From Flavonifractor plautii ATCC 29863 (lineage in GTDB: Bacteria; Bacillota; Clostridia; Oscillospirales; Oscillospiraceae), in the NCBI RefSeq assembly GCF_000239295.1, contig NZ_JH417703.1:15411-56118 (forward strand): a stretch of 40,708 nt of DNA. The letters run 5' to 3'. Shown in pieces: positions 4,487 to 20,024 of this stretch; position 1 is the stretch's first letter; every line of letters begins with the position of its first letter. The notes below the pieces were generated by a model that did no database searches, was not told where the DNA came from, and was given only the letters and a program-made list of their open reading frames with translations. Position numbers and translations under genes: made by a program.

Positions 4487-6088
4487 TCAGAACTTGGTAC
4501 CCCCGAACTCGTGGAAGGTGAGGTTCTTGTTCCGCTCCTCGGTCCAGCCGATGGCCCACTGGGAACCGAACAGCAGGAGCTGGTTGCCCTTGTAGTCCTC
4601 CACCAGCTTCACGTCGGTGCCCAGGATGAGATCCTCCTCCTTGACCGGCTCGCCGTCGTCGGTCTCGATCCACCGCAGGTATTCGTAGGGCAGGCCCTCC
4701 ATATAGAGCTCCACGTTGTACTCGTTCTTGAGGCGGTACTCCAGCACGTCGAACTGGAGGGTGCCCACCACGCCCACGATGACCTCCTCCATGCCGGTGT
4801 AGGGGGTCTTAAAGATCTGAATAGCGCCCTCCTGGGCGATCTGCTCCATTCCCTTCAAAAACTGCTTGCGCTTCATGGTATCCAGGGAGCGCACCCGCTT
4901 GAAGTGCTCGGGGGCGAAGGTGGGGATGGGGTCGAAGCGGAACTTTTTGCCCGGGGCGCACAGGGTGTCGCCGATGGAGAAGATGCCCGGGTCAAACACG
5001 CCGATGATGTCGCCGGCGTAGGCCTCCTCGATGATCTCCCGCTCGGCCGCCATGAGCTGCTGGGGCCGGGACAGGCGGAGCTTCTTGCCGCCCTGGACAT
5101 GGTACACCTCCTTATCCGCGTCAAAGCGGCCGGAGACGATGCGCATAAAGGCGATGCGGTCCCGGTGGGCCTTGTTCATGTTGGCCTGGATCTTGAACAC
5201 AAACGCGGAGAAGTCGTCGTCCAGGGAGTCCACCACCAGCTCGCCCGCCCGCCGGGGCAGGGGGGCGGTGGTCATCTGGAGGAAGTGCTCCAGGAAGGGC
5301 TCCACGCCGAAGTTGGTGAGGGCGGAGCCGAAAAACACCGGGGAGAGCTTGCCGTGGCGCACCCGGTCCAGATCAAACGCGGCGGCCGCGCCGTCCAGCA
5401 GCTCGATCTCGTCGGTGAGCTGCTGGTGGAGCCGCTCGCCGATCAGTCCGTCCAGGTTGGGATCGCCCAGCTCCACCTCGGTGGCGGTGGCCGCCTTGGC
5501 TCCGCCGTTGGAGGTGAAGTGGATAATCTTGCGGCTGCCCCGGTCATATACGCCCTGGAAGTCCTTGCCGCAGCCGATGGGCCAGTTCACCGGGTAGGTC
5601 TCGATGCCCAGCTCCTTCTCCAGCTCCTCCAGCAGCTCGAAGGAGTCCCGCGCCTCCCGATCCATCTTGTTGATAAAGGTGAAGATGGGGATGTCCCGCA
5701 TGGCGCACACCTTGAACAGCTTGCGGGTCTGGGCCTCCACGCCCTTGGCCGCGTCAATGACCATCACCGCGCTGTCGGCGGCCATGAGGGTGCGGTAGGT
5801 GTCCTCGGAGAAGTCCTGGTGGCCGGGGGTGTCCAGGATGTTGATGCAGTAGCCCTCGTACTGGAACTGCATGACGGAGGAGGTGACCGAGATGCCGCGC
5901 TGCTTCTCAATCTCCATCCAGTCGGAGGTGGCGGCCCGGGTGTTCTTTTTGCCCTTGACCTGCCCGGCCTGGGCAATGGCCCCGCCGTAGAGCAGGAATT
6001 TCTCGGTCAGGGTGGTCTTGCCGGCGTCCGGGTGGCTGATGATGGCAAAGGTACGCCGGCGGTTGATTTCTTTCTCGTATTGTGACAA
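4487..6088 (-). CDS. prfC: Peptide chain release factor 3
   Basis: The 533-aa translational GTPase matches RF3 (529 aa in E. coli) over its whole length. G1 SHPDAGKT lies at 18-25, DTPGHQDF is the G3 box and NKMD the G4 box; the later domains follow the RF3 pattern. RF3 uses GTP to remove RF1 or RF2 from the ribosome after peptide release. I chose a TTG start at 6088 because AAGGAGGAC lies six bases upstream; an ATG further out has no ribosome site. A terminator follows the stop directly. The HAD phosphatase gene lies 121 bases upstream on the same strand. Confidence 0.95.
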   Translation of the reverse strand: MSQYEKEINRRRTFAIISHPDAGKTTLTEKFLLYGGAIAQAGQVKGKKNTRAATSDWMEIEKQRGISVTSSVMQFQYEGYCINILDTPGHQDFSEDTYRTLMAADSAVMVIDAAKGVEAQTRKLFKVCAMRDIPIFTFINKMDREARDSFELLEELEKELGIETYPVNWPIGCGKDFQGVYDRGSRKIIHFTSNGGAKAATATEVELGDPNLDGLIGERLHQQLTDEIELLDGAAAAFDLDRVRHGKLSPVFFGSALTNFGVEPFLEHFLQMTTAPLPRRAGELVVDSLDDDFSAFVFKIQANMNKAHRDRIAFMRIVSGRFDADKEVYHVQGGKKLRLSRPQQLMAAEREIIEEAYAGDIIGVFDPGIFSIGDTLCAPGKKFRFDPIPTFAPEHFKRVRSLDTMKRKQFLKGMEQIAQEGAIQIFKTPYTGMEEVIVGVVGTLQFDVLEYRLKNEYNVELYMEGLPYEYLRWIETDDGEPVKEEDLILGTDVKLVEDYKGNQLLLFGSQWAIGWTEERNKNLTFHEFGGTKF

Positions 6089-6124
6089 GGTAATGTCCTC
6101 CTTGATAGAGTTGGTGCATGGGTG

Positions 6125-6206
6125 CCGGGCGGATGTGGGCATCCGCCCCTACGGCTGGAACAGGCCCGCATTTGGACGTTGTAGGGGGCGATGCCTACAT
6201 CGCCCC
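6125..6206. repeat. Pair of palindromic repeat units in opposite orientation
   Basis: Two hairpins, each with a perfect 9-bp stem and a 4-base loop, lie at 6127-6148 and 6185-6206. Both read as a GC stem ending in GATG/CATC, and each is flanked by a CCCCTAC-type tail, the second in reverse orientation, so the pair forms a larger imperfect inverted repeat around about 35 bases. This resembles the dispersed REP-like palindromes of gut Clostridia. It fills the gap between the HAD gene and prfC. Confidence 0.7.
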
Positions 6207-7019: not shown

Positions 7020-9425
7020 TTACAGGGTGAGGGCGCGGTGGAGAATGACGGCCATCTCCGCCCGGTTCAGGGTTCCGGTGGGGTTGAGCTTGCCCTGCTC
7101 GTTGCCCTGGATCACGCCGGCCTGGGCCATGGCGGCCATGGCCGTGCGGGCGTAGTCCGCCACGGAGGCCCCATCCGGGAAGCGGCTCAGGTAGCTGTCA
7201 TAGGCGTTGGGCACAGACCGGTTGACGGCCTGCATGGCCCGCAGGAGGAACACCATGGCGTCCTGCCGGGTGACGGGGTCGTTGGGGCGGAAGCTCCCGT
7301 CCGCCTCGGCGGTGGCGATGCCCAAAGCCTTGGCATGGGCCAGGGCCTCGGCGTAGTAGCTGCCGGCGGCCACGTCAGTAAAGTTGCCTGCGGCGGCGGT
7401 GCTGCTGAAGCCAAAGGTGCGGTAGAGCATCAGGATATAGTCGCCGCGGGTGAGGGTGGAGGCGGGGCTGAAGGTGGCGCCGTCGCCCGTACCGGTGGTA
7501 ATGCCGTAGGCGGCCAGGAATTCCACGGAAGCTCCCGCCCAACTGTTATAGCTGCCCATGTCGCTGAAGCGGGAGGAGGCGGAGGGCGTGACCATCACCT
7601 GAACGGTGCCGGTATACTCGATGCCGTCGGCATCGGTACCCACATAGGGGATGGTTACAACGCCGCTGTAACCCGCCTTGGGCAGGAAGGTGACCTCGCC
7701 CAGCAGGTAGACGCCGCCCACGGAGTAGTCCACGGTGGAAACCACCTCGCCGCGGTACTGGGTGGGAGTGTGGAAGTTGTAGTAGAGCTGCCCGCCGGTG
7801 GTGTCGGGGGCGGGGAACCGGACGGAGGTCAGGGCCTTGCCGCCCCGGGCCGCGCAGGCGGCGGTAAAGTCGGCGGCGTTGAAGTCCACGGCCAGGCCGG
7901 TGGAGGTGTAGGTGATGATGGTGGGCTCACTCAGCGTCACATAGGTCAGCTTGACCTCGCCGTAGAAGGACTTGCCGTTGGTGGCCTCCCCCTCAAAGGG
8001 GATGCGCACGGAGCTGCCAGTGCCGCTGCCGGGGACAAAGGAAACCTGGTCCAGCCGGGGAGAGGAGGCGCGGTAATAACGGCCGGAGCCCACCTCAGAC
8101 TCGCCGGACTCGCCGTGCTGGTAGTACAGATAGCCGCCGCGGCCGGAGTCGTAATCAAAGATCACATAGTTCAGATTGGCGCCGGTCTCCTTCACGCAGG
8201 CCTCGTTGAACGCGTCCGTCTGGAAGTTGACGGTGGAACCGTTGCCGGCCTGGAGCTCCACGGTAATGTCGGCGCCGCCGGCATCGCCCACCCGAATGAC
8301 CAGCTCGCCGGCGAACTTGTCGCCGTCGTCCGCCCTGCCCTCAAAGGGGATGGTGACCGCCCCTTCAAAATTGCGCTTGGGTACGAAGGTCAGGTCGTCG
8401 ATCTCGTCGTGGCGGATTTCCTCGTCCTCGTCAATCTCCTCCTGATCCCGCTTGTCATAGTCCCGGTAGAGGGTGCCCTCCCGGGAGGAGGGCAGATCGG
8501 TGAACCAGACCCGTCCCACCTCGGTACCGCTGGTCTCGTCGTAGACGAACTCGTCGAAGTCGTCATAGTCGAAGTCCACCGTGTCGTTGACGTCCACATC
8601 GTACGTCACGTCGCCCCTGGCGGCGCTGCTGCTCCGGCCGCCGCCCACCTCGATGACCAGGTCGCCGTAGAACTTATCCCGGGCGTCCGACCGGCCCTCG
8701 AAGGACAGGGTAACCGTCCCCTCATAATTCCGCTTGGGCACAAAGGTCAGGTCGTCGATCTCGTCCCGGTCGAACTCCTCTTCCTCCTCTACTTCGCGTT
8801 CACTGGAGTAGCCATAGTCGTAGTAGAGGGTGCCCTTGCTGGAGGAGGGCAGGTCGGTGAAGAAGATGTAATCGACCTCGGTGCCGTCCGACTCGTCGTA
8901 GGCATAGTCGTCAAAATCGTCCACGTCCAGATCCACGGCGTCGTTGACATCCACCTCATAGGTCACTTCGCCGTCAGAGGATGAACGCCCTGTGCCATTG
9001 ACCTCAATATAAAGTGTACCAGAAAAATTCTCACCCTGGTCGGACTCACCGCTAAAACCGATCGTTACGGAACCATCGTAGTCCTCATCTGGCACAAAGG
9101 CGAGATCATCTAGGTCTCTGCGGGTAAAGCTCTCTCGCTTTTCGACCTCATATTCGTCTCGGCCGTCATAGTCAAAATATAGCACACCCTTACTGGACGA
9201 GGGTAAGTTTGTAAACCAGAGCTCATCCACCTCGGTACCCTGTGACGTTTCGTCATACACAAATTTATCGAAGTCCTCCTTTTCCAAGTAGAGGACCTCA
9301 TCCGCATCCACCTCGTATTCTACATTTCGGCTCGCCGCCGTGGCCCCGGGTACCAGGCTCGTTAAAAGGGCCAGACTCATACCCGCGGACAGCAGCCGGG
9401 CAAGCCCTCTATGGGTTCGCTTCAT
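7020..9425 (-). CDS. S-layer-homology surface protein with five acidic repeats
   Basis: An 801-aa exported protein. The signal peptide covers about residues 1-31 (LVPGATAA end). Five tandem modules of roughly 108 residues follow, at about 35-142, 153-260, 272-379, 386-495 and 501-612. Each carries GTEV..FTDLPSS..GTLYYDY, an acidic turn, then DDLTFVPK..Y.G.VTI.F.G. Modules 1-3 are extremely Asp/Glu-rich; 4 and 5 are not. Three SLH domains end the protein (about 619-670, 681-735, 748-800) and would anchor it to cell-wall polymer. The acidic loops suggest calcium binding, which is inference. I chose the second ATG (9425) because its distance from AAGGAGAG is better than that of the ATG at 9431. 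The DNA for module 1 is clearly more AT-rich than the rest. Confidence 0.85.
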   Translation of the reverse strand: MKRTHRGLARLLSAGMSLALLTSLVPGATAASRNVEYEVDADEVLYLEKEDFDKFVYDETSQGTEVDELWFTNLPSSSKGVLYFDYDGRDEYEVEKRESFTRRDLDDLAFVPDEDYDGSVTIGFSGESDQGENFSGTLYIEVNGTGRSSSDGEVTYEVDVNDAVDLDVDDFDDYAYDESDGTEVDYIFFTDLPSSSKGTLYYDYGYSSEREVEEEEEFDRDEIDDLTFVPKRNYEGTVTLSFEGRSDARDKFYGDLVIEVGGGRSSSAARGDVTYDVDVNDTVDFDYDDFDEFVYDETSGTEVGRVWFTDLPSSREGTLYRDYDKRDQEEIDEDEEIRHDEIDDLTFVPKRNFEGAVTIPFEGRADDGDKFAGELVIRVGDAGGADITVELQAGNGSTVNFQTDAFNEACVKETGANLNYVIFDYDSGRGGYLYYQHGESGESEVGSGRYYRASSPRLDQVSFVPGSGTGSSVRIPFEGEATNGKSFYGEVKLTYVTLSEPTIITYTSTGLAVDFNAADFTAACAARGGKALTSVRFPAPDTTGGQLYYNFHTPTQYRGEVVSTVDYSVGGVYLLGEVTFLPKAGYSGVVTIPYVGTDADGIEYTGTVQVMVTPSASSRFSDMGSYNSWAGASVEFLAAYGITTGTGDGATFSPASTLTRGDYILMLYRTFGFSSTAAAGNFTDVAAGSYYAEALAHAKALGIATAEADGSFRPNDPVTRQDAMVFLLRAMQAVNRSVPNAYDSYLSRFPDGASVADYARTAMAAMAQAGVIQGNEQGKLNPTGTLNRAEMAVILHRALTL

Positions 9426-11219: not shown

Positions 11220-11448
11220 CCATGCTCACATTATTCTGCCTTTTGCCCGATTTCAGCCACTCCATTTTGTTTAGATTGTATATATTTATCCTCTTATTTG
11301 TCATTATTTTTAGTTAGCATGCTCTACAAATGCGGTAAACTCCAATTATTTACCTCCCTTTTACAGCACCATGGTGGCAGTTGGGCTCTGATCCGGCCTA
11401 CACTGGACGGGAACCGTACCTCCCGCCCCCGCAGAAAGGAGAACCCCC

Positions 11449-11643
11449 ATGCTTCCCTGTCAGAGCCAATGTCCCTCCTACCACAGCGGCTGCCACAAGA
11501 GCTGCGCCTGCTGGAAGGCCTTTCAGGAGCGCCAGCGCCTCCAGCGCCAGGCAAAAAAGAAGTATCTGAAGTTCTACGGCGCGCTGTGCGCCCAATCCCT
11601 CCGCCAGCTCACTGCCGGACAGTCCCGCCGTCCGGCGTGGTGA
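11449..11643 (+). CDS. Cys-rich small protein, function unknown
   Basis: A 64-aa basic protein with five cysteines in its first 21 residues (C4, C8, C15, C19, C21), in the pattern CQSQCPSYHSGCHKSCACWK. A helix rich in Gln, Arg and Lys follows (FQERQRLQRQAKKKYLKFY). The Cys/His cluster suggests a small zinc-binding site; function is unknown. A good AAAGGAG ribosome site lies 8 bases upstream and a strong terminator follows, which supports a real gene. I recall similar short Cys-rich ORFs in other Oscillospirales but cannot name a family. Confidence 0.65.
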   Translation: MLPCQSQCPSYHSGCHKSCACWKAFQERQRLQRQAKKKYLKFYGALCAQSLRQLTAGQSRRPAW

Positions 11644-11678
11644 CTGCATGCCCGCGCTCTCCTGTCACGGCGGCGGCA

Positions 11679-11714
11679 AAGGCCCCTCTCCGCCGGACGG
11701 CGGGGAGGGGCCTT
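11679..11714 (+). terminator. Terminator after the Cys-rich protein gene
   Basis: A hairpin with a 10-bp outer stem (AAGGCCCCTC paired with GAGGGGCCTT) and further inner pairing is followed by a T/C-rich tract. It also lies just beyond the end of the minus-strand iron operon and may work in both directions. Confidence 0.75.
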
Positions 11715-11726
11715 CTCTGCCTTGCT

Positions 11727-11807
11727 TTACTTGCGGCGCTTGCCGGTGTAGATGCACATGAGCATACAGAACACGGCGCCCCAAGCCCAGAATCTATGCT
11801 GTTTCAT
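11727..11807 (-). CDS. 26-aa membrane microprotein overlapping the P1B ATPase gene
   Basis: This minus-strand ORF of 27 codons encodes a basic-hydrophobic-basic peptide: MKQHRFW, then AWGAVFCMLMCIY, then TGKRRK. That is the form of a single-pass membrane microprotein. AAGGAG lies 7 bases before the ATG. The ATG sits inside the last codons of the ATPase gene, overlapping it by 14 bases in another frame, so translation is probably coupled. It is the last gene of the iron operon. It is too short for most gene finders. I know of comparable tiny ORFs after such ATPases only as a vague memory, so the family is left open. Confidence 0.65.
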   Translation of the reverse strand: MKQHRFWAWGAVFCMLMCIYTGKRRK

Positions 11808-13926
11808 TGCCAGGCTCCTTTCCCTGGGCCCTGCGCCCGCCGGGCGCGGGCAGATAGGGCCGCATGCTGGCGGCGCTGATGGCCATGGTAGAGGCATTGT
11901 GCAGCAGGGCCGTGGTGGTCGGCGGCAGTATGCCGAAAATCCCCAGCGCCAGCAGGCTGGTGTTGATGGTCAAAATCGACCTGTAGTTGCGGTTAATGCG
12001 CTCCAGCATCCGCTGGGAGAGGCGGCGCAGGGCGGCCAGCTCCCGCAGATCGGAGGAGAGGAGGGTAATATCCGCCACCTCCCGGGCCAGGTCGGAGGCA
12101 TCCCTCATGGCCACGGATACATCCGCGGCGGCCAGGGCGGGGGAGTCGTTGACCCCGTCGCCCACCATGATGAGCCTGCTGCCGCCCTCCTTGTAGCCCT
12201 CGATCAGGGAGGCCTTGTCGGCTGGGAGCACCTGGGCGCGGAACGTGTCGATGCCCAGCCGCTCACACACCGCCCGGGCGGCGGTCTCCTGGTCGCCGGT
12301 GAGCATGATCACCCGGCGCACCCCCAGCGCCCGCAGGGCGGCGATGGCCTCAGCGGCCTCGGGGCGGGGCGGATCGCTGATCAACAGCACGCCGGCCAGC
12401 CTGCCGCCGATGGCCAGATAGAGCACCGAACGGCCGCGGGCGGCCGCGGCGATCCGCCTAGCCTGTTCGTCGGTACAGGCAACGCCCTCGTCCTCGAAGA
12501 TGAAGTGGCGGCTGCCGATGAGGGCCCGCTCCCCCTCCAGGGTGGTGGCCACGCCGTGGGCCACCACATACTCCACCTCGGCGTGGCGCTCCTCGTGGTT
12601 GAGGCCCCGCTCCTCGGCGGCGCGGGTGACGGCCCGGGCCATGCTGTGGGGGAAGTGCTCCTCGATGCAGGCCGCGCACCGCAGCAGCTCGTCCTCCCCC
12701 CGGCCGGTGAAGTCCAGAACCTCCTCCACCCGGGGGCAGGCGGCGGTGAGGGTGCCGGTTTTGTCGAATACGATGGTATCCGCCTCGGCAAAGGCCTCCA
12801 GGTATTTGCCGCCCTTGACCATAATACGGCGGGCGGAGGCCTCCCGCATGGCGGAGATGATGGAGATGGGGGTGGACAGCTTGATGGCGCAGGAGTAGTC
12901 CACCATCAGTACGGACAGAGCCCGGGTCACATTCCGGGTCAGCAGGCCCACCGCCAGGGCCCCGGCAAAGCTGAAGGGCACGATGGCGTCGGCCAGCCGC
13001 TCGGCCTGGCTCTGGGCTCCGGCCTTCAGCGCCTCGGAATTCTCAATGAGGCCCACGATCTGCTGAATCCGGCTCTCGCCGGCCAGGGCCGCGGCCTGGA
13101 TGACCAGACTGCCCTCCTCCAGCACGGTGCCGGCGTAGACGGTGGAGCCCTGGCGCTTGTGGACGGGGAGGGGCTCGCCGGTCATGGACGCCTCATTCAC
13201 CATGGCGTCGCCGTCTGTGACAGTGCCGTCCACCGGGATCAGGGCGCCGGAGCGCACCCGGATACGCTCCCCCAGAGCCAGGCGGCCCATGGGGATGGAT
13301 TCCTCGGAGCCGTCCTCCGCCACCCGCCACACGGTGTCCACGTGGATGGCCAAGCTCTGGGTCAGGGTGGTCTGGGTGCGCTTGCGGGTGTAGTCCTCCA
13401 GTAGGGCGGACAGGCCCAGCAGGAACATGACCGAGCCGGCGGTGGACCACTCCCGCCGGGCGATGGCTCCGGCGATGGAGGCCGCATCCAGCACGGCCAC
13501 GTCCAGCCGCCCCCCGCCCAGGCTTCTCAGGCCCTCCCGCCAGTAGCCCGCCGCGTTCCACAGAGTCACGGCGCAGCGGACAGGGAAGGGGAAAAACCAC
13601 TTTTTCAGGAAATGGCGGGCGGCCATGGAAAGGAGCCGGCCCAGAAACAGGCTGTCCACCTGGCGGAGCTGGTCATCGTCGGCGGCGGTCCCCACCGGCA
13701 GGGCGTCCCGCCGGAGCCCCCGGAGTACTGCCAGGGCCTCCGCCCGGCCCTCCCCCTCGTAGCACACCAGCACGCTGCCATTGAGCGCACAGGTGACGGC
13801 CTCCCGCACGCCCGGACGGCCCAGGAGCAGGGCGGCAATGCCGTAGCCCTGCTCCTGGGTAAACGCATCCGGGCCGAAGCGCACCCGAAGGCGGCCGGGC
13901 TGGTCGTATGCGATGCGATATCTCAT
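11794..13926 (-). CDS. P1B-type metal ATPase, FezB-like
   Basis: This 710-aa P-type ATPase has TGE at 249-251, the phosphorylation site DKTGT at 388-392, an HP-type motif HFPHSM at 424-429, TGDQ at 543-546 and GDGVNDSP at 589-596. The membrane metal site that is CPC, SPC or CPH in most P1B pumps reads DYSCAIKLSTP at 343-353: Cys kept, Pro absent. There is no CxxC metal-binding domain; the N-terminus instead has the Arg-rich PGRLRVRFG (10-18). These features recall the P1B-6 class that includes FezB of ferrosomes, so iron is the likely substrate. The start is 8 bases after the stop of the 79-aa gene; the ribosome site is weak, so coupling is likely. It would work in a membrane, perhaps that of an internal vesicle. 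Confidence 0.8.
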   Translation of the reverse strand: MRYRIAYDQPGRLRVRFGPDAFTQEQGYGIAALLLGRPGVREAVTCALNGSVLVCYEGEGRAEALAVLRGLRRDALPVGTAADDDQLRQVDSLFLGRLLSMAARHFLKKWFFPFPVRCAVTLWNAAGYWREGLRSLGGGRLDVAVLDAASIAGAIARREWSTAGSVMFLLGLSALLEDYTRKRTQTTLTQSLAIHVDTVWRVAEDGSEESIPMGRLALGERIRVRSGALIPVDGTVTDGDAMVNEASMTGEPLPVHKRQGSTVYAGTVLEEGSLVIQAAALAGESRIQQIVGLIENSEALKAGAQSQAERLADAIVPFSFAGALAVGLLTRNVTRALSVLMVDYSCAIKLSTPISIISAMREASARRIMVKGGKYLEAFAEADTIVFDKTGTLTAACPRVEEVLDFTGRGEDELLRCAACIEEHFPHSMARAVTRAAEERGLNHEERHAEVEYVVAHGVATTLEGERALIGSRHFIFEDEGVACTDEQARRIAAAARGRSVLYLAIGGRLAGVLLISDPPRPEAAEAIAALRALGVRRVIMLTGDQETAARAVCERLGIDTFRAQVLPADKASLIEGYKEGGSRLIMVGDGVNDSPALAAADVSVAMRDASDLAREVADITLLSSDLRELAALRRLSQRMLERINRNYRSILTINTSLLALGIFGILPPTTTALLHNASTMAISAASMRPYLPAPGGRRAQGKEPGNETA

Positions 13927-13933
13927 GGCTGCG

Positions 13934-14173
13934 TTACGCCTCTTCGGCGGTCTCCTGGGCCGCCTTCTGCTTGGCCTCCGCACACAGATCCTGAGCGTCC
14001 TCCTTCATGTTCTGGAGGGTCACCCTGGCGTCCTGCTGGAGCTTCATGCCCTTGGCCATGCCGGCCACGCAGAGCTCACGGGTCTTGGGGGACTTGGCAA
14101 CCTTGGCTCCCACCAGGGCGGCGGCCACGCCGCCGGCAAAGCAGAGGACCTTCGGATTCTGATACCACTTCAT
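13934..14173 (-). CDS. 79-aa one-helix membrane protein, FezA-like (DUF6110-type)
   Basis: The N-terminal hydrophobic helix (about residues 9-25, FAGGVAAALVGAKVA, small-residue and Gly-rich) is followed by a basic stretch (KSPKTREL), a segment VAGMAKGMKLQQDA and a long acidic helix ending in EDAQDLCAEAKQKAAQ. I believe this is the DUF6110 family found beside heavy-metal P-type ATPases. Its place directly before a FezB-like ATPase and its single Gly-rich membrane helix suggest a FezA-like ferrosome membrane protein, which is an inference. Its ATG overlaps the regulator stop by four bases (ATGA), so it is translationally coupled. Confidence 0.75.
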   Translation of the reverse strand: MKWYQNPKVLCFAGGVAAALVGAKVAKSPKTRELCVAGMAKGMKLQQDARVTLQNMKEDAQDLCAEAKQKAAQETAEEA

Positions 14174-14556
14174 GATTGGAAAACTTCCTTTCTCTGTCTG
14201 TCTGGAACATGGATGGGCTCAAAACAGTGGCGGGGCAGCTCGGAGACTGCCGCGCAGGCGGCCTTCCACGCCTCCTCATAGGACAGCTCCATCCGGTTTT
14301 GCAGCGTCTCGGCCAGTTTGTCCGTCTGGCTGGCCAGCACCCGGGCCCACCGGCAGCCGTCGTCGGTCAGGTGTACCTTGCCGTACCGCTCCTTGGTCAC
14401 CAGGCGCTTGTCTGTCAGAATGGACATCATGCTGGTGACGGAGGCGCGGGACACGTCCAGGGTCTGGGCGATATCCTTGGAGGACACCTCCAGCCGGGCC
14501 TGCGAGAGGTGGTAGATGGTCAAAAGATAGCGTACGTTGGTATTGGTCAGCTCCAT
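14170..14556 (-). CDS. DtxR-family metal-dependent repressor (short form)
   Basis: The 128-aa protein begins with the winged helix of DtxR/MntR regulators: NVRYLLTIYHL, KDIAQTLDVSRASVTSMM as the helix-turn-helix (about residues 27-44), then a wing with GKVHLTDDG. It lacks the C-terminal SH3 domain of long DtxR/IdeR proteins; the rest (about 66-128) is the helical dimerisation and metal-binding part. It sits in the middle of the iron operon, so it probably senses Fe(II) and represses the same operon, for which operator candidates lie at 17542-17636. AAGGAGT precedes the ATG. It follows the Cys-rich gene by 14 bases. Confidence 0.8.
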   Translation of the reverse strand: MELTNTNVRYLLTIYHLSQARLEVSSKDIAQTLDVSRASVTSMMSILTDKRLVTKERYGKVHLTDDGCRWARVLASQTDKLAETLQNRMELSYEEAWKAACAAVSELPRHCFEPIHVPDRQRKEVFQS

Positions 14557-14570
14557 GTATGACTCCTTAA

Positions 14571-14780
14571 CTAAGGGGCGCCAGCCGCGCCCCGGCGTGT
14601 CGGCGGTTGCTTCTCAGGGTGGCACAGCCCGGACGAGGCGCAGTGGCCGCACCCTCCGCCGCAGGAGCCCCCGCAGGAGCAGGAGCTCTTGCCATGGCGG
14701 CGGTTGTAAATGCCCTTTCCCACAATGGCCGCAAACACGGCCAGAATGATCAGGCCAATGATAATTGTTGGTGCATTCAT
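14571..14780 (-). CDS. FeoB-associated Cys-rich membrane protein
   Basis: The 69-aa product has one N-terminal membrane helix (about 4-23), a basic stop (NRRHGK), then a Gly/Cys cluster (CSCGGSCGGGCGHC) and a later Cys-His (CHPE). This is the layout of the small proteins that follow feoB in many Firmicutes and are thought to help ferrous iron transport, possibly by handing on Fe(II). It starts 9 bases after feoB behind AAGGAG. Confidence 0.85.
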   Translation of the reverse strand: MNAPTIIIGLIILAVFAAIVGKGIYNRRHGKSSCSCGGSCGGGCGHCASSGLCHPEKQPPTRRGAAGAP

Positions 14781-14789
14781 AGGCGCTCC

Positions 14790-16958
14790 TTACTTGGCCG
14801 CGGCGGCGACGGCGGAAATGGAGAGGGTGTTCTCGTCGTACTTGTTTCTGCGGACAAGGAGGTAGACCAGGCCGACGAGGGCGGCAGCGGCGGCGATGGT
14901 GCCGATGCCGAAGGAGACCTCGCCGGTGATAAGCCCGCCGAGCTGGTAGACGATGAGGGAGACCACATAGGCAAAGCCGCACATATAGCCGATGGCGCCC
15001 AGGGTCCACCTGGCGTTGTTCATTTCCCGCTTGATGGCGCCCATAGCCGCAAAGCAGGGGGCGCACAGCAGGTTGAAGATCATAAAGCTGTAAGCGCTCA
15101 GGGCGGTGAAGTGGGTGCCCACGGCGGCCAGCAGGCCGGGGTCCTCCTCCGTCAGATCGGCGCCCAGACCGAAGAGCACGCCGAAGGTGGACACCACGTT
15201 CTCCTTGGCGATGAGGCCGGTAACGGTGGCCACGGTGGCCTGCCAGGTGCCGAAGCCCAGGGGTGCAAAGAGAAAGGCCACCGCGCCGCCAATGGCCGCC
15301 AGCAGGGAGGTGTTGTTGTCCTCCACCATGCCGAAGCCCGCCTCGGTAAAGCCGAAGCCCTGGAGGAACCAGAGGATGATGGAGGAGGCCAGGATGATGG
15401 TGCCGGCCCGCTTGATGAAGGACCAGCCGCGCTCCCAAGTGGCCCGCAGGACGTTGCCCACAGAGGGCACGTGGTAGGCGGGCAGCTCCATAACGAAGGG
15501 GGCGGGGTCGCCTGCAAACGCCTTGGTCTTTTTCAGGATGATGCCGGAAAAGATGATGGCCGCCACGCCGATGAAGTAGGCGGACACCGCCACCAGGCCG
15601 CTGCCGCCGAACAGGGCGCCGGCGAACAGGCCGATGATGGGCATCTTGGCCCCGCAGGGCACGAAGCAGGTGGTCATGACCGTCATCCGGCGGTCGCGCT
15701 CGTTCTCAATGGTACGGGAGGCCATGACGCCGGGCACGCCGCAGCCGGAGCCGATGAGCATGGGGATAAAGCTCTTGCCGCTCAGGCCAAACTTGCGGAA
15801 GATACGGTCCATGATGAACGCCACGCGGGCCATGTAGCCCACATCCTCCAGGATGGACAGCATCAGGAACAGCACCAGCATCTGGGGCACGAAGCCCAGC
15901 ACCGCGCCCACGCCGGCAATGATGCCGTCCACAATCAGCCCCTGCAGCCAGGGGGCGGTGCCGATGCCCTCCAGCCAGCCGCTCACCGCCGGCGGCACAA
16001 TCTCGCCGAACAGCACGTCGTTGGTCCAACCGGTCACCCAGTCGCCCACCGTGCCGATGGCCACATAGTACACCGCAAACATAACCGCCGCGAAAATCGG
16101 CAGGGCCAGAATCCGGTTGGTCACAATCCGGTCAATCTTGTCAGAGGTGGTCAGGCTGTGGGCCGCCGCCTTCTTCTTCACGGCCTTGTTCACAACCCCG
16201 TTGATGTACGCGTACCGCTGGTTGGTGATGATGCTCTCCGCGTCGTCGTCCAGCTCCTTCTCGCAGTCGGCGATGTGGGCCTCCAGGTGGGCCTTCAGCT
16301 CACCCGTCAGATTCAACTGGGCCATCACCTTGTCGTCCCGCTCAAACACCTTGATGGCGTACCACCGCAGGTAACGGTCGTCCACCAGCCCCGCAATGGA
16401 CTCCTCGATGTGGGCGATGGCGTGCTCCACGCTGCCCGTGAACACGTGGGGCAGCTCACCCGCCCGGTGGGACTTGGCCAGCGCCACGGCCTTCTCCGCC
16501 GCGGTCATGCCGCCCTCGCCCTTCAGCGCGCTCATGCTCACCACCTCGCACCCCAGGGCCTCCCCCAGCCTGCCGAGGTCGATCTTGTCCCCGTTCTTCC
16601 GCACCAGGTCGATCATGTTGACCGCAACCACCACCGGAATCCCCAGCTCGATGAGCTGCGTCGTCAGGTACAGGTTGCGCTCGATGTTCGTGCCGTCCAC
16701 GATGTTCAGAATCGCGTCCGGCTTCTCACCCACCAGATAGCTCCGCGCCACCACTTCCTCCAGCGTGTACGGAGACAGCGAGTAGATGCCGGGCAGGTCC
16801 TGAATGACCACCTCCTTGTGGCCCTTCAGCTTGCCCTCTTTTTTCTCCACTGTTACGCCGGGCCAGTTGCCCACGTACTGGTTTGAACCGGTCAGGGCGT
16901 TGAACAGCGTCGTCTTGCCGCAGTTCGGGTTCCCCGCCAGCGCGATCTTAAGCTCCAT
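14790..16958 (-). CDS. feoB: Ferrous iron transporter FeoB
   Basis: The 722-aa protein has an N-terminal G domain with G1 GNPNCGKT (9-16), G3 DLPG (54-57), G4 NMID (114-117) and G5 SALKG (143-147). A helical spacer and the polytopic membrane domain follow, including the Gate-type repeats (SGCGVPGVM and CVPCGAKMPI type motifs). It imports Fe(II) across the cytoplasmic membrane, the main iron route under anaerobic conditions. Two feoA genes precede it and the Cys-rich partner follows. The ribosome site before the ATG is AAGGAAGGG. The 112-base gap to feoA holds two small hairpins that may tune expression. Confidence 0.95.
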   Translation of the reverse strand: MELKIALAGNPNCGKTTLFNALTGSNQYVGNWPGVTVEKKEGKLKGHKEVVIQDLPGIYSLSPYTLEEVVARSYLVGEKPDAILNIVDGTNIERNLYLTTQLIELGIPVVVAVNMIDLVRKNGDKIDLGRLGEALGCEVVSMSALKGEGGMTAAEKAVALAKSHRAGELPHVFTGSVEHAIAHIEESIAGLVDDRYLRWYAIKVFERDDKVMAQLNLTGELKAHLEAHIADCEKELDDDAESIITNQRYAYINGVVNKAVKKKAAAHSLTTSDKIDRIVTNRILALPIFAAVMFAVYYVAIGTVGDWVTGWTNDVLFGEIVPPAVSGWLEGIGTAPWLQGLIVDGIIAGVGAVLGFVPQMLVLFLMLSILEDVGYMARVAFIMDRIFRKFGLSGKSFIPMLIGSGCGVPGVMASRTIENERDRRMTVMTTCFVPCGAKMPIIGLFAGALFGGSGLVAVSAYFIGVAAIIFSGIILKKTKAFAGDPAPFVMELPAYHVPSVGNVLRATWERGWSFIKRAGTIILASSIILWFLQGFGFTEAGFGMVEDNNTSLLAAIGGAVAFLFAPLGFGTWQATVATVTGLIAKENVVSTFGVLFGLGADLTEEDPGLLAAVGTHFTALSAYSFMIFNLLCAPCFAAMGAIKREMNNARWTLGAIGYMCGFAYVVSLIVYQLGGLITGEVSFGIGTIAAAAALVGLVYLLVRRNKYDENTLSISAVAAAAK

Positions 16959-17055
16959 AATCTCTCAGTCCCTTCCTTTTCCGTGAGTTTGATATAACTA
17001 ATTCACAGATGCAGTACCGCTCCGCTGTGCCGCCTTTGGCGGCGCGGCCGTATCC

Positions 17056-17070
17056 GGGGAAGCGCTCCCC
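17056..17070 (-). other. Small hairpin between feoA and feoB
   Basis: GGGGA and TCCCC form a short stem directly after the stop of the second feoA. A further GCCGCC/GGCGGC stem lies just downstream on the minus strand (about 17030-17045). There is no T tract, so a mild processing or attenuation role is more likely than termination. Confidence 0.35.
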
Positions 17071-17292
17071 CTAGGCGATTTCGATCATCTCCGCATCGGC
17101 CTTGCGCACGCTCAGCTCATAGCCGCGCACGTTCAGCTCCATGGGGTCGCCCAGAGGGGCGACCTTGCGCACGTGCAGCGCCACGCCCTTGGTGATCCCC
17201 ATGTCCATGATCCGGCGCTTGACCGCCCCCTCACCGTGGAGCTTGACCACCGTGACAGTGTCTCCTACCTTTGCATCCCGCAGTGTCTTCAT
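17071..17292 (-). CDS. feoA: FeoA protein (second of two)
   Basis: This 73-aa SH3-like FeoA domain carries the family patterns VGDTVTVVKLHGEGAVKRR, MGITKG and DPMELNVRGYELSVRKADA. FeoA is a small cytoplasmic partner needed for FeoB iron uptake. GAGGAGAGGAGA precedes the ATG, and it starts 16 bases after the first feoA. Confidence 0.9.
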   Translation of the reverse strand: MKTLRDAKVGDTVTVVKLHGEGAVKRRIMDMGITKGVALHVRKVAPLGDPMELNVRGYELSVRKADAEMIEIA

Positions 17293-17308
17293 GTTCTGTC
17301 TCCTCTCC

Positions 17309-17521
17309 TCAGATCATAACCCGGTGGGCCATAGTCCTGTCCAGAGCAATGCGGCTGTCCTTGACCTGCACAATCAAGTTGCCGCCCAGCTCGCTGACCA
17401 CCGTAACCGTTCCGTCCACCACAAATCCAAGCTCGGCCAGGTGCTGGCGGATCTCATCCTTCCCGGTAATCTTCCGAATGGTCACCGTCTCGCCCTGCTT
17501 TGCCAGCGTCAGAGGCATCAT
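17309..17521 (-). CDS. feoA: FeoA protein (first of two)
   Basis: A 70-aa FeoA domain: LAKQGETVTIRKITGKDEI, LAELGFVVDGTVTVV and GGNLIVQVKDSRIALDRTMA. It differs clearly from the second copy, as usual in Firmicutes with feoA-feoA-feoB. It is the first gene of the iron operon. Two Met codons open the frame; the first (17521) follows AAGGGAGAG. The upstream region 17542-17639 carries the promoter and three inverted repeats. Confidence 0.9.
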   Translation of the reverse strand: MMPLTLAKQGETVTIRKITGKDEIRQHLAELGFVVDGTVTVVSELGGNLIVQVKDSRIALDRTMAHRVMI

Positions 17522-17541
17522 CGTGGCTTCTCTCCCTTACA

Positions 17542-17599
17542 GGTTAACTTCTGCTAACCAATTTTCTTTTATCAGGCGGTTAGCTAATGCTAACCGCCT
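17542..17599 (-). promoter_or_regulatory. Two GGTTA-type inverted repeats in the feo leader
   Basis: 17574-17599 is a perfect 26-base palindrome: an 11-bp arm containing GGTTAGC, the loop TAAT, then the matching arm. 17542-17559 is a related shorter repeat (GGTTAAC / GCTAACC, one mismatch). The GGTTAGC half-site recalls DtxR/IdeR-type operators (TTAGGTTAGSCTAACCTAA). The likely ligand is the DtxR-type protein encoded in the same operon; this is inference. Confidence 0.6.
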
Positions 17600-17602
17600 A
17601 GA

Positions 17603-17639
17603 ACAAATTGAGTTTACACCCGCTAACTCAATTTGTCAA
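17603..17639 (-). promoter_or_regulatory. feo operon promoter inside a 12-bp inverted repeat
   Basis: On the minus strand TTGACA (17634-17639) and TAAACT (17611-17616) are 17 bases apart. A perfect 12-bp inverted repeat (17603-17614 with 17625-17636) overlaps both boxes, so a protein bound there would block RNA polymerase. Confidence 0.75.
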
Positions 17640-17670
17640 TAGTCTTCTGCATATTTTTCCCTCTGCACAA

Positions 17671-17706
17671 AATTGCCCCGGTGCGCAGAGCCGCACCGGG
17701 GCAATT
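17671..17706. terminator. Terminator of the 110-aa protein gene
   Basis: A perfect 15-bp stem (17671-17685 with 17692-17706) has T-rich sequence on both sides. It separates the LexA-box gene from the feo promoter. Confidence 0.9.
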
Positions 17707-17714
17707 TTTCGGTT

Positions 17715-18047
17715 CTATCCCGCGAAAAAGCGCAGCACCACCGCCGCCAGCAGCACAACCACCGCGCCAGTGGCCGCCAGATCCACGGTCAGCGCCAGCG
17801 TGCGCCGCCGCCGGACCGGCCGGGGCCGGCCGGGCGCCTCCTCCCGCGGGGCATACTCCTCCGGGTGGGCGGCCTGCCGGTAGGCGGTGAAATCCACCAC
17901 CTTCCCGCCCGCAGGCGTCACCGGGCGGCGGGGCCGGGGGACAAAGGCATAGCAGACCGTCTCCTGCCCGCCGCTGGCCCTGCGGCCCGCGGCTTCTCCG
18001 CAGACAGTGAGTCGTTTGGCATCCAGACTGTAATAGATGGTCTCCAT
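17715..18047 (-). CDS. Tail-anchored protein behind LexA boxes
   Basis: I do not recognise this 110-aa protein. Residues 1-50 look like a small folded domain (METIYYSLDAKRLTVCG). A Pro/Arg-rich linker follows, ending in RPRPVRRRR, and a single C-terminal membrane helix (about 86-108) closes it. The basic side before the helix predicts a cytoplasmic N-terminus. AGGAGGG precedes the ATG. The promoter holds two LexA-like boxes, so expression is probably induced by DNA damage. Small one-helix proteins under LexA are often cell-division inhibitors (YneA in Bacillus, SidA and DidA in Caulobacter), so that is a reasonable but unproven role. No LysM domain is seen. Confidence 0.6.
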   Translation of the reverse strand: METIYYSLDAKRLTVCGEAAGRRASGGQETVCYAFVPRPRRPVTPAGGKVVDFTAYRQAAHPEEYAPREEAPGRPRPVRRRRTLALTVDLAATGAVVVLLAAVVLRFFAG

Positions 18048-18150
18048 GTCGTTCCCTCCTGCATCGGTTTTCCAGTTGACAAACCGATTTTACTCCATGC
18101 TCTGTCCCATAGACCGGGCTGGGTCGAAAAAAAGATCCAATGGGTTAAAT

Positions 18151-18198
18151 AGAACTTTCGTTCGATTTTAGTATACAACATTTGTTCGATTTTTGCAA
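18151..18198 (-). promoter_or_regulatory. Promoter with two LexA-like boxes
   Basis: On the minus strand TTGCAA (18193-18198) and TATACT (18170-18175) are 17 bases apart. One LexA-like box (18175-18188, CGAAC-N4-GTTGT) fills the spacer. A second (18151-18164, CGAAC-N4-GTTCT) lies just downstream of the -10 box. The Firmicute consensus is CGAAC-N4-GTTCG, so each box has one perfect half. Confidence 0.65.
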
Positions 18199-18222
18199 GC
18201 CCCATTTATGTACGGCAGCACA

Positions 18223-18258
18223 AAAAACGGGACAGCCCGCCAGGGCCGTCCCGTTTTT
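18223..18258 (-). terminator. Terminator of the ABC exporter gene
   Basis: An 11-bp stem (18223-18233 with 18248-18258) is followed on the minus strand by a T run. Confidence 0.9.
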
Positions 18259-18269
18259 GGGAGGTTATA

Positions 18270-20024
18270 CTATACAGATACCGATTTCTGCGCAAGATAT
18301 AACTGTGCGTATTCTCCGCCCTTGGCCATAAGCTCCTCATGGGTCCCCTCCTCCTGAATGCCGTTGCCGTCAATGACGAGAATACGGCTGGCAGAGCGGA
18401 TGGTGGACAGGCGGTGGGCGATGATGAGGGTGGTGCGGCCCTTTGCCAGCTCGTCAAAGGCGGACTGGATGCGGGCCTCGGTGACCGAGTCCAGGGCGGA
18501 GGTGGCCTCGTCCAGAATAAGGACGGGCGGATTTTTCAGGAAAATGCGGGCAATGGACACCCGCTGCTTCTGGCCGCCGGAGAGCATGGCGCCCCGCTCG
18601 CCCACCTGGGTCTGGAAGCCGTCGGGCATGTCCAGGATGTCGTCGTAGATCTCCGCCCGCTTGGCGGCCTCCACGATCTCGGCCTCGGTGGCGTCAGGCC
18701 GGCCGTAGCGGATGTTGTCGTAGATGGTGCCGGCAAAGAGAAAGACATCCTGCTGGACGATCCCGATATTGGCCCGCAGGGAGTGCTGGGTGAGGGTGCG
18801 CACGTCCTTTTCGTCCACCAGCACCCGGCCCCCGGTGACATCGTAGAACCGGGGGATGAGCTGGCACAGGGTGGACTTGCCGCCGCCGGAGGGGCCCACC
18901 ACCGCCACAGTCTCGCCGGGCCGGACGTGGAGGGTGACGTGCTCCAGCACCGGCGGATCGGAGGGCTCATACCGGAAGGTCACGTCCTCCACCCGGATGT
19001 CCCCCTTCACGTCGGTGAGCTCCTGGGCGTCCGGCTCGTCCTGGATGTCGGGCTCCACCCGCATCAGGGCCACAAACCGCTTGAAGCCCGCCATGCCCTG
19101 CATAAACTGCTCCACGAAGGCGGAGAGCTTGCGGATGGGGGTGATGAAGGTGGAGATGTAGAGGAAGAAGGTGGTCAAGTCGATGAGATCCATCCGCCCC
19201 CGCATGAGCAGGAATCCGCCGAAGGCGATGACAACCACGGACAGGATGCCCATGAAGAACTCCATACCCGACTGATAGAAGGCCATGGCCCGGTAGTAGC
19301 CCCGCTTGGCCCCCCGGAACTGGTCGTTGGCCTGGTCGAATTTGGCGCTCTCCGCCGCCTCGTTGGCGAAGGCCTTGGCGGTACGCATGCCGGAGATGGA
19401 GGACTCAACCTCCCCGTTAATGCCCGCCAGCTTGGCCTTCACCTCAGTGGAGGCTCGCATCATCCGCTTGCGGCACAGGGTGGTGAACAGGATGAACAGG
19501 GGGATTACCGCAAATACGATCAGGGCCAGCTCCCACCGGATGGTGAGCATGACGCAGAAGGCCCCCAGGATGGTGATGGAGGAGATGAACAGATCCTCCG
19601 GGCCGTGGTGGGCCAGCTCGGTGATCTCAAACAGGTCGCCGGTGACCCGGCTCATGAGCTGGCCGGTGCGGTTTTTGTCATAGAAGGAAAAGGACAGATC
19701 CTGCATGTGGGAGAACAGATCCCGCCGTATGTCGGCCTCCATCCGTACCCCCAGCAGATGCCCCCAGTAGGTGATGATATAGTAAAAGCACCCCTTGAGC
19801 ACGTAAGCCCCGGCCAGCACCGCCATTACCACGAAAAACGCCGTGAACATCTGTCCGGGCAGCAGCGTCTGCATGGAAAAGCGGGAGACGATGGGGAAGG
19901 CCAGGTCCACCAGGCAGATGCACAGGGCACACACCATATCCAGTGCAAACAGCTTCCAGTGGGGCCGGTAATAAGAGGCGAATATCCTCAGATATCCGTC
20001 CGTTTTCCACCTCTTTTGCTTCAT
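18270..20024 (-). CDS. ABC exporter half-transporter (MsbA/LmrA type)
   Basis: The 584-aa product fuses six membrane helices (about residues 20-310) to an ATPase domain with Walker A GPSGGGKST (about 377-385), signature LSGGQKQR (about 478-485) and Walker B LILDEATSALD (about 500-510). The D-loop and H-loop (IIAHRLST) are intact, so it could work as a homodimer. Substrates of this class are lipids, drugs or peptides and cannot be told here. It stands alone, with its own terminator and no adjacent second half-transporter. AGGAGT lies before the ATG. Confidence 0.85.
   Translation of the reverse strand: MKQKRWKTDGYLRIFASYYRPHWKLFALDMVCALCICLVDLAFPIVSRFSMQTLLPGQMFTAFFVVMAVLAGAYVLKGCFYYIITYWGHLLGVRMEADIRRDLFSHMQDLSFSFYDKNRTGQLMSRVTGDLFEITELAHHGPEDLFISSITILGAFCVMLTIRWELALIVFAVIPLFILFTTLCRKRMMRASTEVKAKLAGINGEVESSISGMRTAKAFANEAAESAKFDQANDQFRGAKRGYYRAMAFYQSGMEFFMGILSVVVIAFGGFLLMRGRMDLIDLTTFFLYISTFITPIRKLSAFVEQFMQGMAGFKRFVALMRVEPDIQDEPDAQELTDVKGDIRVEDVTFRYEPSDPPVLEHVTLHVRPGETVAVVGPSGGGKSTLCQLIPRFYDVTGGRVLVDEKDVRTLTQHSLRANIGIVQQDVFLFAGTIYDNIRYGRPDATEAEIVEAAKRAEIYDDILDMPDGFQTQVGERGAMLSGGQKQRVSIARIFLKNPPVLILDEATSALDSVTEARIQSAFDELAKGRTTLIIAHRLSTIRSASRILVIDGNGIQEEGTHEELMAKGGEYAQLYLAQKSVSV

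Follow-up and report, generated by a model that had tools for sequence, protein, structure and literature searches.

An apparent operon of ferrous iron import genes with a FezA/FezB-like pair and a 26-residue microprotein in Flavonifractor plautii

The eight-gene locus considered here lies on the minus strand of a 40,708-nucleotide stretch of Flavonifractor plautii ATCC 29863 (contig NZ_JH417703.1), which as a whole is called the window. It joins the genes of a ferrous iron (Fe(II)) importer to genes for a FezA-like membrane protein, a FezB-like P1B-6 ATPase and a 26-residue microprotein, and thus touches on the ferrosome, a recently recognised bacterial organelle.

The eight-gene locus

The features are given in the direction of transcription (aa, amino acids; TM, transmembrane helix; E, expectation value; L, G and C numbers denote loci, genomes and contigs):

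17611..17639, minus strand: promoter TTGACA-17-TAAACT; between -35 and -10 lies a weak operator pair, GTTAG-N6-TAAAC (17612-17627)
17578..17595, no strand: operator box 1, GGTTAG-N6-CTAACC, an exact palindrome (motif search)
17542..17559, no strand: operator box 2, one mismatch (motif search)
17309..17521, minus strand: feoA, 70 aa (PF04023, 67.4 bits, over the cut-off)
17071..17292, minus strand: second feoA, 73 aa (PF04023, 70.4 bits, over the cut-off)
14790..16958, minus strand: feoB, Fe(II) importer, 722 aa (TIGR00437, 560 bits, cut-off 315.65)
14571..14780, minus strand: FeoB-associated Cys-rich one-helix protein, 69 aa (PF12669, position after feoB, hydropathy 1-27)
14170..14556, minus strand: degenerate DtxR-family regulator, 128 aa (PF01325 6.7e-9, no PF02742; alignment)
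13934..14173, minus strand: FezA-like (DUF6110-related) one-helix membrane protein, 79 aa (PF19605, HHalign, hydropathy peak 7-28)
11794..13926, minus strand: FezB-like P1B-6 ATPase, 710 aa, ATG start (TM4 VDYSCAIKLSTP, TM6 LHN)
11727..11807, minus strand: 26-aa one-helix microprotein MKQHRFWAWGAVFCMLMCIYTGKRRK, DUF6219-related (Pfam, neighbourhoods, dN/dS, surveys)
11678..11715, minus strand: GC-rich hairpin, probable operon end (-38.8 kcal/mol, z -5.2, weak T tail)

All eight open reading frames are present as an apparent single unit. Their starts, upstream sequences and gaps were recomputed, and every coordinate agrees with the end-to-end arrangement of a preliminary description of this DNA, with gaps of 16, 112, 9, 14, -4, 7 and -14 bases from the first feoA to the 26-aa gene. 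The eight-gene minus-strand operon is confirmed in this sense, and co-transcription of the eight genes is predicted from their layout. The Feo Fe(II) importer is identified by a FeoB above its NCBIfam cut-off and two FeoA proteins above theirs. The Cys-rich 69-aa protein matches PF12669 at E 9.9e-5 but reaches only 23 bits against a cut-off of 27.

The upper limit of the region, position 17639, is the first base of the TTGACA-17-TAAACT promoter. A scan of 11400-18300 returns two promoter-like sites, at 17639-17611 ahead of the first feoA and at 18198 upstream; two terminator-like sites fall within the feoB coding sequence. Between feoB and the regulator, where a separate promoter or terminator would have divided the proposed unit, the same scan finds neither a promoter-like nor a minus-strand terminator-like site. 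A degenerate operator precedes feoB on the minus strand, in the gap between feoA (ends 17071) and feoB (starts 16958). It reads ATTAG-N6-CAAAC in the window, with ATTAG-N6-CTAAC as its counterpart in L052, and may indicate a second start site.

A second species of the genus (G017, locus L052) has the whole set of eight in unchanged order, each protein 68-99% identical to the window's, so the unit is maintained; a hairpin followed by TTTTTT lies at the equivalent position past the last gene there. Among 20 genomes of the genus, the window-type ATPase is found in two (the window's genome and G017), another P1B-6 type only (46-55% identical, E 1e-150) in nine and neither type in nine; G017 carries both types.

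The P1B-6 ATPase and the two small one-helix proteins

The ATPase scores 497 bits with TIGR01525, and family searches name it just "heavy metal P-type ATPase". It has no CxxC within its first 150 residues, reads VDYSCAIKLSTP (YSCAIK) in TM4 and ALLHNASTMA in TM6, and thus combines HN in TM6 with the absence of CPC from TM4. HN in TM6 is the mark of the P1B6 group in the relevant passages of PMC9374683. The P1B tree was built from 42 rows with L057 excluded; a first tree had started from 54 extracted sequences, three of which (323, 862 and 977 aa) were removed by a length filter, and a generic P-ATPase motif scan of genome contigs had yielded about 18 useful loci among 80 listed, the rest being mostly other pumps. 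In the 42-row tree the window's ATPase falls inside a 24-row P1B-6 clade with support 100/98. The pumps with CPC from its own genome, a CtpC-like mycobacterial row, two rows with SPC, the P1B-4 mark, and other P1B rows fall outside. Within the clade, TM4 reads SCA-x-[KR]-L in 21 of 24 rows (exceptions L058, L165 and L166) and TM6 holds HN in 23 (exception L165). HN is also seen in several CPC pumps of another clade, so it is the tree that carries the argument. A copper, zinc or P1B-4 identity is ruled out by tree and motifs together, and the assignment of the protein as a P1B-6 pump, FezB-type at family level, holds on this comparison, as the preliminary description had proposed.

Below the family level the Fez name fits less closely. 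The window's pump belongs to a 9-row clade (100/99) that is sister to a 10-row clade (97/97) holding L119, the probable Clostridioides difficile FezB locus (genome G358), to whose FezB it is 40% identical. It is therefore best described as a member of a sister clade to the probable C. difficile FezB, itself putatively named, and the earlier identification of the ATPase and the 79-aa protein as a Fez pair stands at the level of the family, on tree and profile, rather than by grouping with L119. No row of the tree was named FezB by a tool, and the L119 genome is placed by several signs in or near the genus of C. difficile, with the species name itself probable. Its fez region has 29% GC; the genome exceeds the 4-hydroxyphenylacetate decarboxylase family cut-off, but so does G161; and its GTPase is 78% identical to that of Clostridioides mangenotii, 74% to that of Faecalimicrobium dakarense and 50% to that of G161. 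The spacing at L119 presumably also fits the map distances of the C. difficile fezAB locus tags. The tags themselves are given in a passage of PMC11651100. Iron as the substrate and the direction of transport are predicted for the window's pump. A second, partial FezB-like copy with an internal stop (about 240 aa matched) lies about 9 kb from the intact copy on contig C12 of G004 (L064 2081-2794).

The 79-aa protein, encoded 7 bases from fezB, scores 19.7 bits with DUF6110 (PF19605; E 9.6e-4) and does not reach the Pfam cut-off of 26 bits, which its same-clade relatives do reach (41.1 in L123, 26.4 in L124, 26 in L127). When nine window-type proteins are compared by HHalign with nine DUF6110 proteins, among them the probable C. 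difficile FezA, homology is found over 64 columns with 98.1% probability (E 6.6e-14). By profile homology and adjacency to a P1B-6 pump, the protein is a distant homologue of FezA, and the similarity suspected in the preliminary description is borne out. According to parts of PMC9374683, DUF6110 proteins come mainly from Firmicutes, a P1B6 transporter is typically encoded alongside them, and PacL is a relative. Membership of a PacL/CtpC platform was considered and rejected: the 79-aa protein scores 17.3 bits with DUF1490 (cut-off 28.4), its C-terminus, KQKAAQETAEEA, lacks a metal-binding motif, and TM4 of the pump reads YSCAIK, not CPC.

P1B ATPases are usually exporters, and the ATPase could accordingly export Fe(II) across the plasma membrane, with the FezA-like protein clustering it in the manner of PacL, and act as a safety valve against over-import by FeoB. 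Co-expression with the importer could then protect from Fe(II) toxicity, and DUF6110 is related to DUF1490/PacL, the scaffold of efflux platforms (portions of PMC9374683 and PMC13043812). On the other side, the CtpC-like row falls outside the P1B-6 clade, and the window's FezA has no PacL-type His-rich C-terminal metal-binding motif. The predicted control of the operon, described below, argues against export too.

The 26-aa protein scores 26.1 bits with DUF6219 (PF19727), just below the cut-off of 27; a canonical relative exceeds it (28.1 bits) and another reaches 23.1. A gene of this length is readily missed by annotation, and no mention of DUF6219 was found in the literature searched. At many loci the gene stands directly ahead of fezA (micro-fezA-fezB), whereas in the window, L052, L057 and L118 it follows fezB instead; read by eye, it is fez-adjacent in 25 of 56 loci. 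In a 13-row alignment the twelve other copies are 42-77% identical to the window's. Ten pairs give nonsynonymous distances (dN) of 0-0.25 against synonymous distances (dS) of 0.23-3.4 (one dS not computable), and differences among 14 copies fall on codon positions 1, 2 and 3 in the ratio 382/173/927. The coding sequence is conserved and under purifying selection.

The distribution of the microprotein follows that of fez-type genes. A 13-row profile at E 1e-3 is positive in 13 of 393 genomes of a class sample. One of these, G120, was dropped: its hit has E 9.8e-4 and falls within a frame of 482 aa, and the genome is not DUF6110-positive. The window's own genome lies under the DUF6110 threshold in both surveys. 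Every one of the 11 genomes that remain besides these two belongs to the set of 33 positive for DUF6110 (p 2.7e-13, kinship ignored). Five of the 11 have the gene beside fez and six elsewhere in the genome, one of the latter (G468) in the form of a 70-aa DUF6219 protein that doubles the motif. In a family sample 8 of 61 genomes are positive, and the seven besides the window's are all among 11 DUF6110-positive ones (p 8.5e-7), so that across both surveys 18 of 18 other microprotein-positive genomes carry DUF6110. By analogy with known small subunits, its most likely role is that of a stabilising or regulatory subunit attached to FezB or FezA within the membrane, and as a follower of fez-type genes it is a directly testable candidate for a missing component.

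Free-standing 26-aa genes, far from fez or on another contig, occur in five fez-positive genomes (L238-L242). A second function was sought in such genes and rejected, as the neighbours in six loci share nothing obvious and carry no exact operator box; by eye they include pirin with a zinc-ribbon-like membrane protein, a glycosyltransferase-like gene, purine biosynthesis and others. Two DUF6219 proteins of about 70 aa in L243, at 5971-6180 (minus strand) and 9096-9308 (plus strand), are tandem doubles of the 26-aa motif, the Pfam run covering the second.

Regulator, operator and recurrence

The in-operon regulator carries the DtxR-family DNA-binding domain (PF01325, 36.3 bits, cut-off 26), and PF02742, the metal-binding and dimerisation domain, is absent from its 21 listed families at E up to 1. 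In the second domain of DtxR/MntR the residues C-x2-E-H are metal ligands. Where L056 and L113 read AC..EH in the alignment, the window's protein reads AACAAVSEL. It is thus a protein whose DNA-binding half is kept and whose metal-binding half is, by profile and alignment, no longer recognisable, and for this reason it probably does not sense iron itself; of the iron-type repressor first proposed here, the DtxR-family DNA-binding domain remains. The best candidate for the acting metal-dependent DtxR is an intact paralogue with both domains on contig C213, which adjoins a flavodoxin operon.

Two predicted operator boxes, GGTTAGCATTAGCTAACC and GGTTAGCAGAAGTTAACC, lie in the operon's leader, with the third, weaker pair between -35 and -10, and G017 has the same three pairs. 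The layout with an operator between -35 and -10 is repeated in L052, and in L113 an exact box takes that place both in the feo promoter and in the separate promoter of DtxR-fezA-fezB (the latter being the L083 place). In Anaerotignum lactatifermentans DSM 14214 (L156) a weak box lies inside a promoter-like sequence just ahead of fezA. The core GTTAG-N6-CTAAC occurs 67 times in 31 of 58 fez loci (674,015 bases), where the reversed half-site occurs once and other spacers seven times at most. It occurs 14 times in the 15 named fez loci (254,014 bases) and once in 60 non-fez P-ATPase loci of similar mean GC (1,061,776 bases). Because some fez loci are near-copies of others, these counts are less independent than they look.

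Five places in the window's genome hold an 18-base box that is exact or has one mismatch. Two are at the eight-gene operon, and the others precede a DUF3793-flavodoxin operon, a FecCD-type ABC (ATP-binding cassette) operon and an HMA protein; ahead of an ABC transporter pair stands a further box, in which the GTTAG-N6-CTAAC core is exact and the flanks show two changes. Flavodoxin and FecCD-type uptake genes are classical iron-starvation genes. Because it is common to both, the predicted operator GGTTAG-N6-CTAACC, which is DtxR-type, points to an iron-starvation regulon. A flavodoxin and DUF3793-like pair also recurs by fez clusters or under the same box at L261 8266-9299, L056 12175-12964, L124 3840-4856 and L120 2735-3836 (Pfam confirms flavodoxin and DUF3793 in L261 alone, and flavodoxin in L056 and L124), and on account of this pairing DUF3793 is probably an iron-starvation protein.

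Two rivals are affected by this grouping. Iron exporters are normally induced by excess iron, unlike what boxes of the starvation type predict here, and the exporter clustered as by PacL, while the foremost rival, is on the whole unlikely. The second rival is that the module handles another divalent metal (Mn, Co or Zn), for instance through a Mn-type FeoB with a matching pump. FezB is termed a putative iron transporter in passages of the literature, so the substrate of a P1B-6 pump can only be predicted, and the Feo system of Porphyromonas gingivalis is said in part of PMC11651100 to join in manganese import. Against another metal stand the operator shared with flavodoxin and FecCD-type ABC genes and the role of C. 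difficile FezB in iron storage, as given in passages of PMC12574912, which together make this rival improbable.

The adjacency of a Fez pair and Fe(II) uptake genes, to which the preliminary description drew attention, is present in the window and not unique to it. In the class sample DUF6110 is found at E 1e-3 in 33 of 393 genomes (27 over the cut-off), from which 34 loci were taken; 32 of these have FezB by the criterion used (not L112 and L129), and in 10 of the 32 fezB has feoA or feoB no more than 5 kb away. The ten include a near-identical pair, L124 and L139, and one locus, L110, with FeoA alone. The same linkage is seen in 3 of 24 further loci at genus and family level. For the 10 of 32 class-level loci the binomial p ranges from 5e-13 to 2e-8 at an assumed chance rate of 1-3%. 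Gene order varies between feoA-feoA-feoB-Cys-fezA-fezB (L136), feoB-Cys-fezA-fezB-DtxR (L127, where the contig ends before the feoB start), feoA-feoA-fezA-fezB (L124), fezA-fezB-feoA-feoA-feoB-Cys (L109) and feoA-feoB-DtxR-micro-fezA-fezB with another gene in between (L056). The linkage is recurrent in the class, and with such differing orders and p values it probably arose more than once. Nothing joining a P1B6 ATPase with feoB was found in the literature searched, and the ferrosome passages of the literature on ferrosomes and FeoB describe no such operon.

It could still be argued that feo and fez are mere neighbours, brought into one operon by chance and acting independently: feo is not within 5 kb in 43 of 56 fez loci, and the order differs between lineages. 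Yet the linkage recurs in different orders in several families, above the assumed chance rates, and in L113, where feo and fez have promoters of their own, both promoters bear the same boxes, so that mere chance is very improbable.

Two conserved neighbours flank the operon. A 64-aa Cys-rich open reading frame (MLPCQSQCPSYH..., 11449-11643, plus strand) heads toward the operon end and is 73% identical over 60 aa to a frame at the equivalent place in G017. Just upstream, a 110-aa protein with a hydrophobic C-terminus (17715-18047, minus strand) is 57% identical in G017 (L052 1144-1479). Neither has a Pfam match at E 1e-3.

Interpretation and known systems

We consider it fairly probable that the locus is an iron-starvation-induced unit which joins Fe(II) import to a ferrosome-type module of FezA-like protein, FezB and 26-aa protein. 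When iron is scarce, a metal-dependent DtxR repressor would come off the boxes that overlap and follow the promoter, and the cell would make the importer together with the pump. Once Fe(II) returns, FeoB would import it, and FezB, which FezA would collect in patches of membrane or in vesicles, would pump surplus cytosolic iron into a membrane-bound store, with the 26-aa protein bound to FezB or FezA in the membrane as a KdpF-like small subunit. Storage rather than export, and the formation of an organelle, are predicted parts of this scheme, as is the choice of partner for the 26-aa protein. Storage is favoured because of the likely starvation control, the apparent transcript with the importer and the FezA/FezB kinship, and because an importer and a plasma-membrane exporter on one transcript would be futile, whereas an importer and an organelle pump would not. 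Ferrosomes accumulate on a shift from low to high iron (passages of PMC12748827), and calprotectin raises ferrosome genes (passages of PMC12004955).

Several points weigh against a ferrosome-type unit under starvation control. We infer the iron substrate, the direction of transport and the organelle from sequence. The window's FezA lies under the DUF6110 cut-off, its FezB is 40% identical to the probable C. difficile FezB, and DUF6110 proteins are kin of PacL, a scaffold of efflux pumps (relevant parts of PMC9374683). A ferritin encoded in the window's genome (126 bits) gives it another possible iron store besides a ferrosome, and the idea that the operon replaces a missing ferritin is ruled out. 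The 13-row profile at E 1e-3 does not find the microprotein in 22 of 33 class-level DUF6110 genomes, including the probable C. difficile, nor in 4 of 11 at family level. It is therefore not part of every FezAB system, and remoter members may be missed since the profile was built from fez-adjacent copies. When as many as two mismatches are allowed, the genome as a whole shows no enrichment of the operator (28 sites, with 77 for the reversed control), and the window's own two matches of this kind are equalled in 24 of 100 shuffles, so the case for it rests on strict matches, placement and conservation. Of the 58 fez loci, 27 have no exact box, and these include the probable C. difficile locus, which indicates that regulation varies.

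More tentatively, the 26-residue peptide, acting on the P1B-6 pump or FezA, may be a third, overlooked component of clostridial ferrosomes, and importer, scaffold, pump and peptide may form a channelling unit from FeoB through FezB to the organelle, controlled by starvation via the six-base-spacer DtxR-type operator. An operon of importer and ferrosome-type pump in several families offers a genetic handle on the source of ferrosome iron, and from the shared operator one can predict the conditions under which the system is on and the further genes that go with it.

The nearest known system is that of C. difficile, whose ferrosomes need FezA and FezB, both Fur-repressed, and for which the relevant part of a review names FezA and FezB alone (PMC12574912). 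Like the window, the probable locus L119 has a FezA-type membrane protein directly before a P1B-6 ATPase. The window differs in its joined feo genes, its boxes of DtxR-type instead of Fur-type, its FezB (40% identical, in a sister clade) and its 26-aa protein, which the profile does not find in the probable C. difficile genome. Low-iron control is reported for C. difficile and predicted for the window.

The P1B-6 pumps of Hahella sp. (L162), Rhodobacter capsulatus DSM 1710 (L166) and a gammaproteobacterium (L172) belong to the window's clade with 34-35% identity, and their clusters, which we take to be of the published fez type, also place a small membrane protein before the pump. feoAB lies about 1 kb from the pump in L172 and about 5.5 kb in L162. 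Unlike the window, these clusters encode Pro-rich proteins, and their small proteins have no profile homology to the window's FezA (1.6%, three sequences). In Desulfovibrio magneticus the cytochrome FezC is a ferrosome component.

The mycobacterial PacL/CtpC system resembles the window in pairing a small one-helix protein, distant kin of DUF6110, with a P1B ATPase that carries HN. CtpC has CPC in TM4 (both points from passages of PMC9374683), its like in the tree falls outside the window's P1B-6 clade, and the system serves zinc and cadmium tolerance (a passage of PMC13043812).

For the microprotein, the DUF6219 family offers an approximately 70-aa tandem double (L243) in place of the window's single unit. 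The closest functional parallel is KdpF of the KdpFABC potassium pump, a peptide some 30 residues long whose gene accompanies that of a P-type ATPase, which it is supposed to stabilise; by analogy, it is a model for how the 26-aa protein may work.

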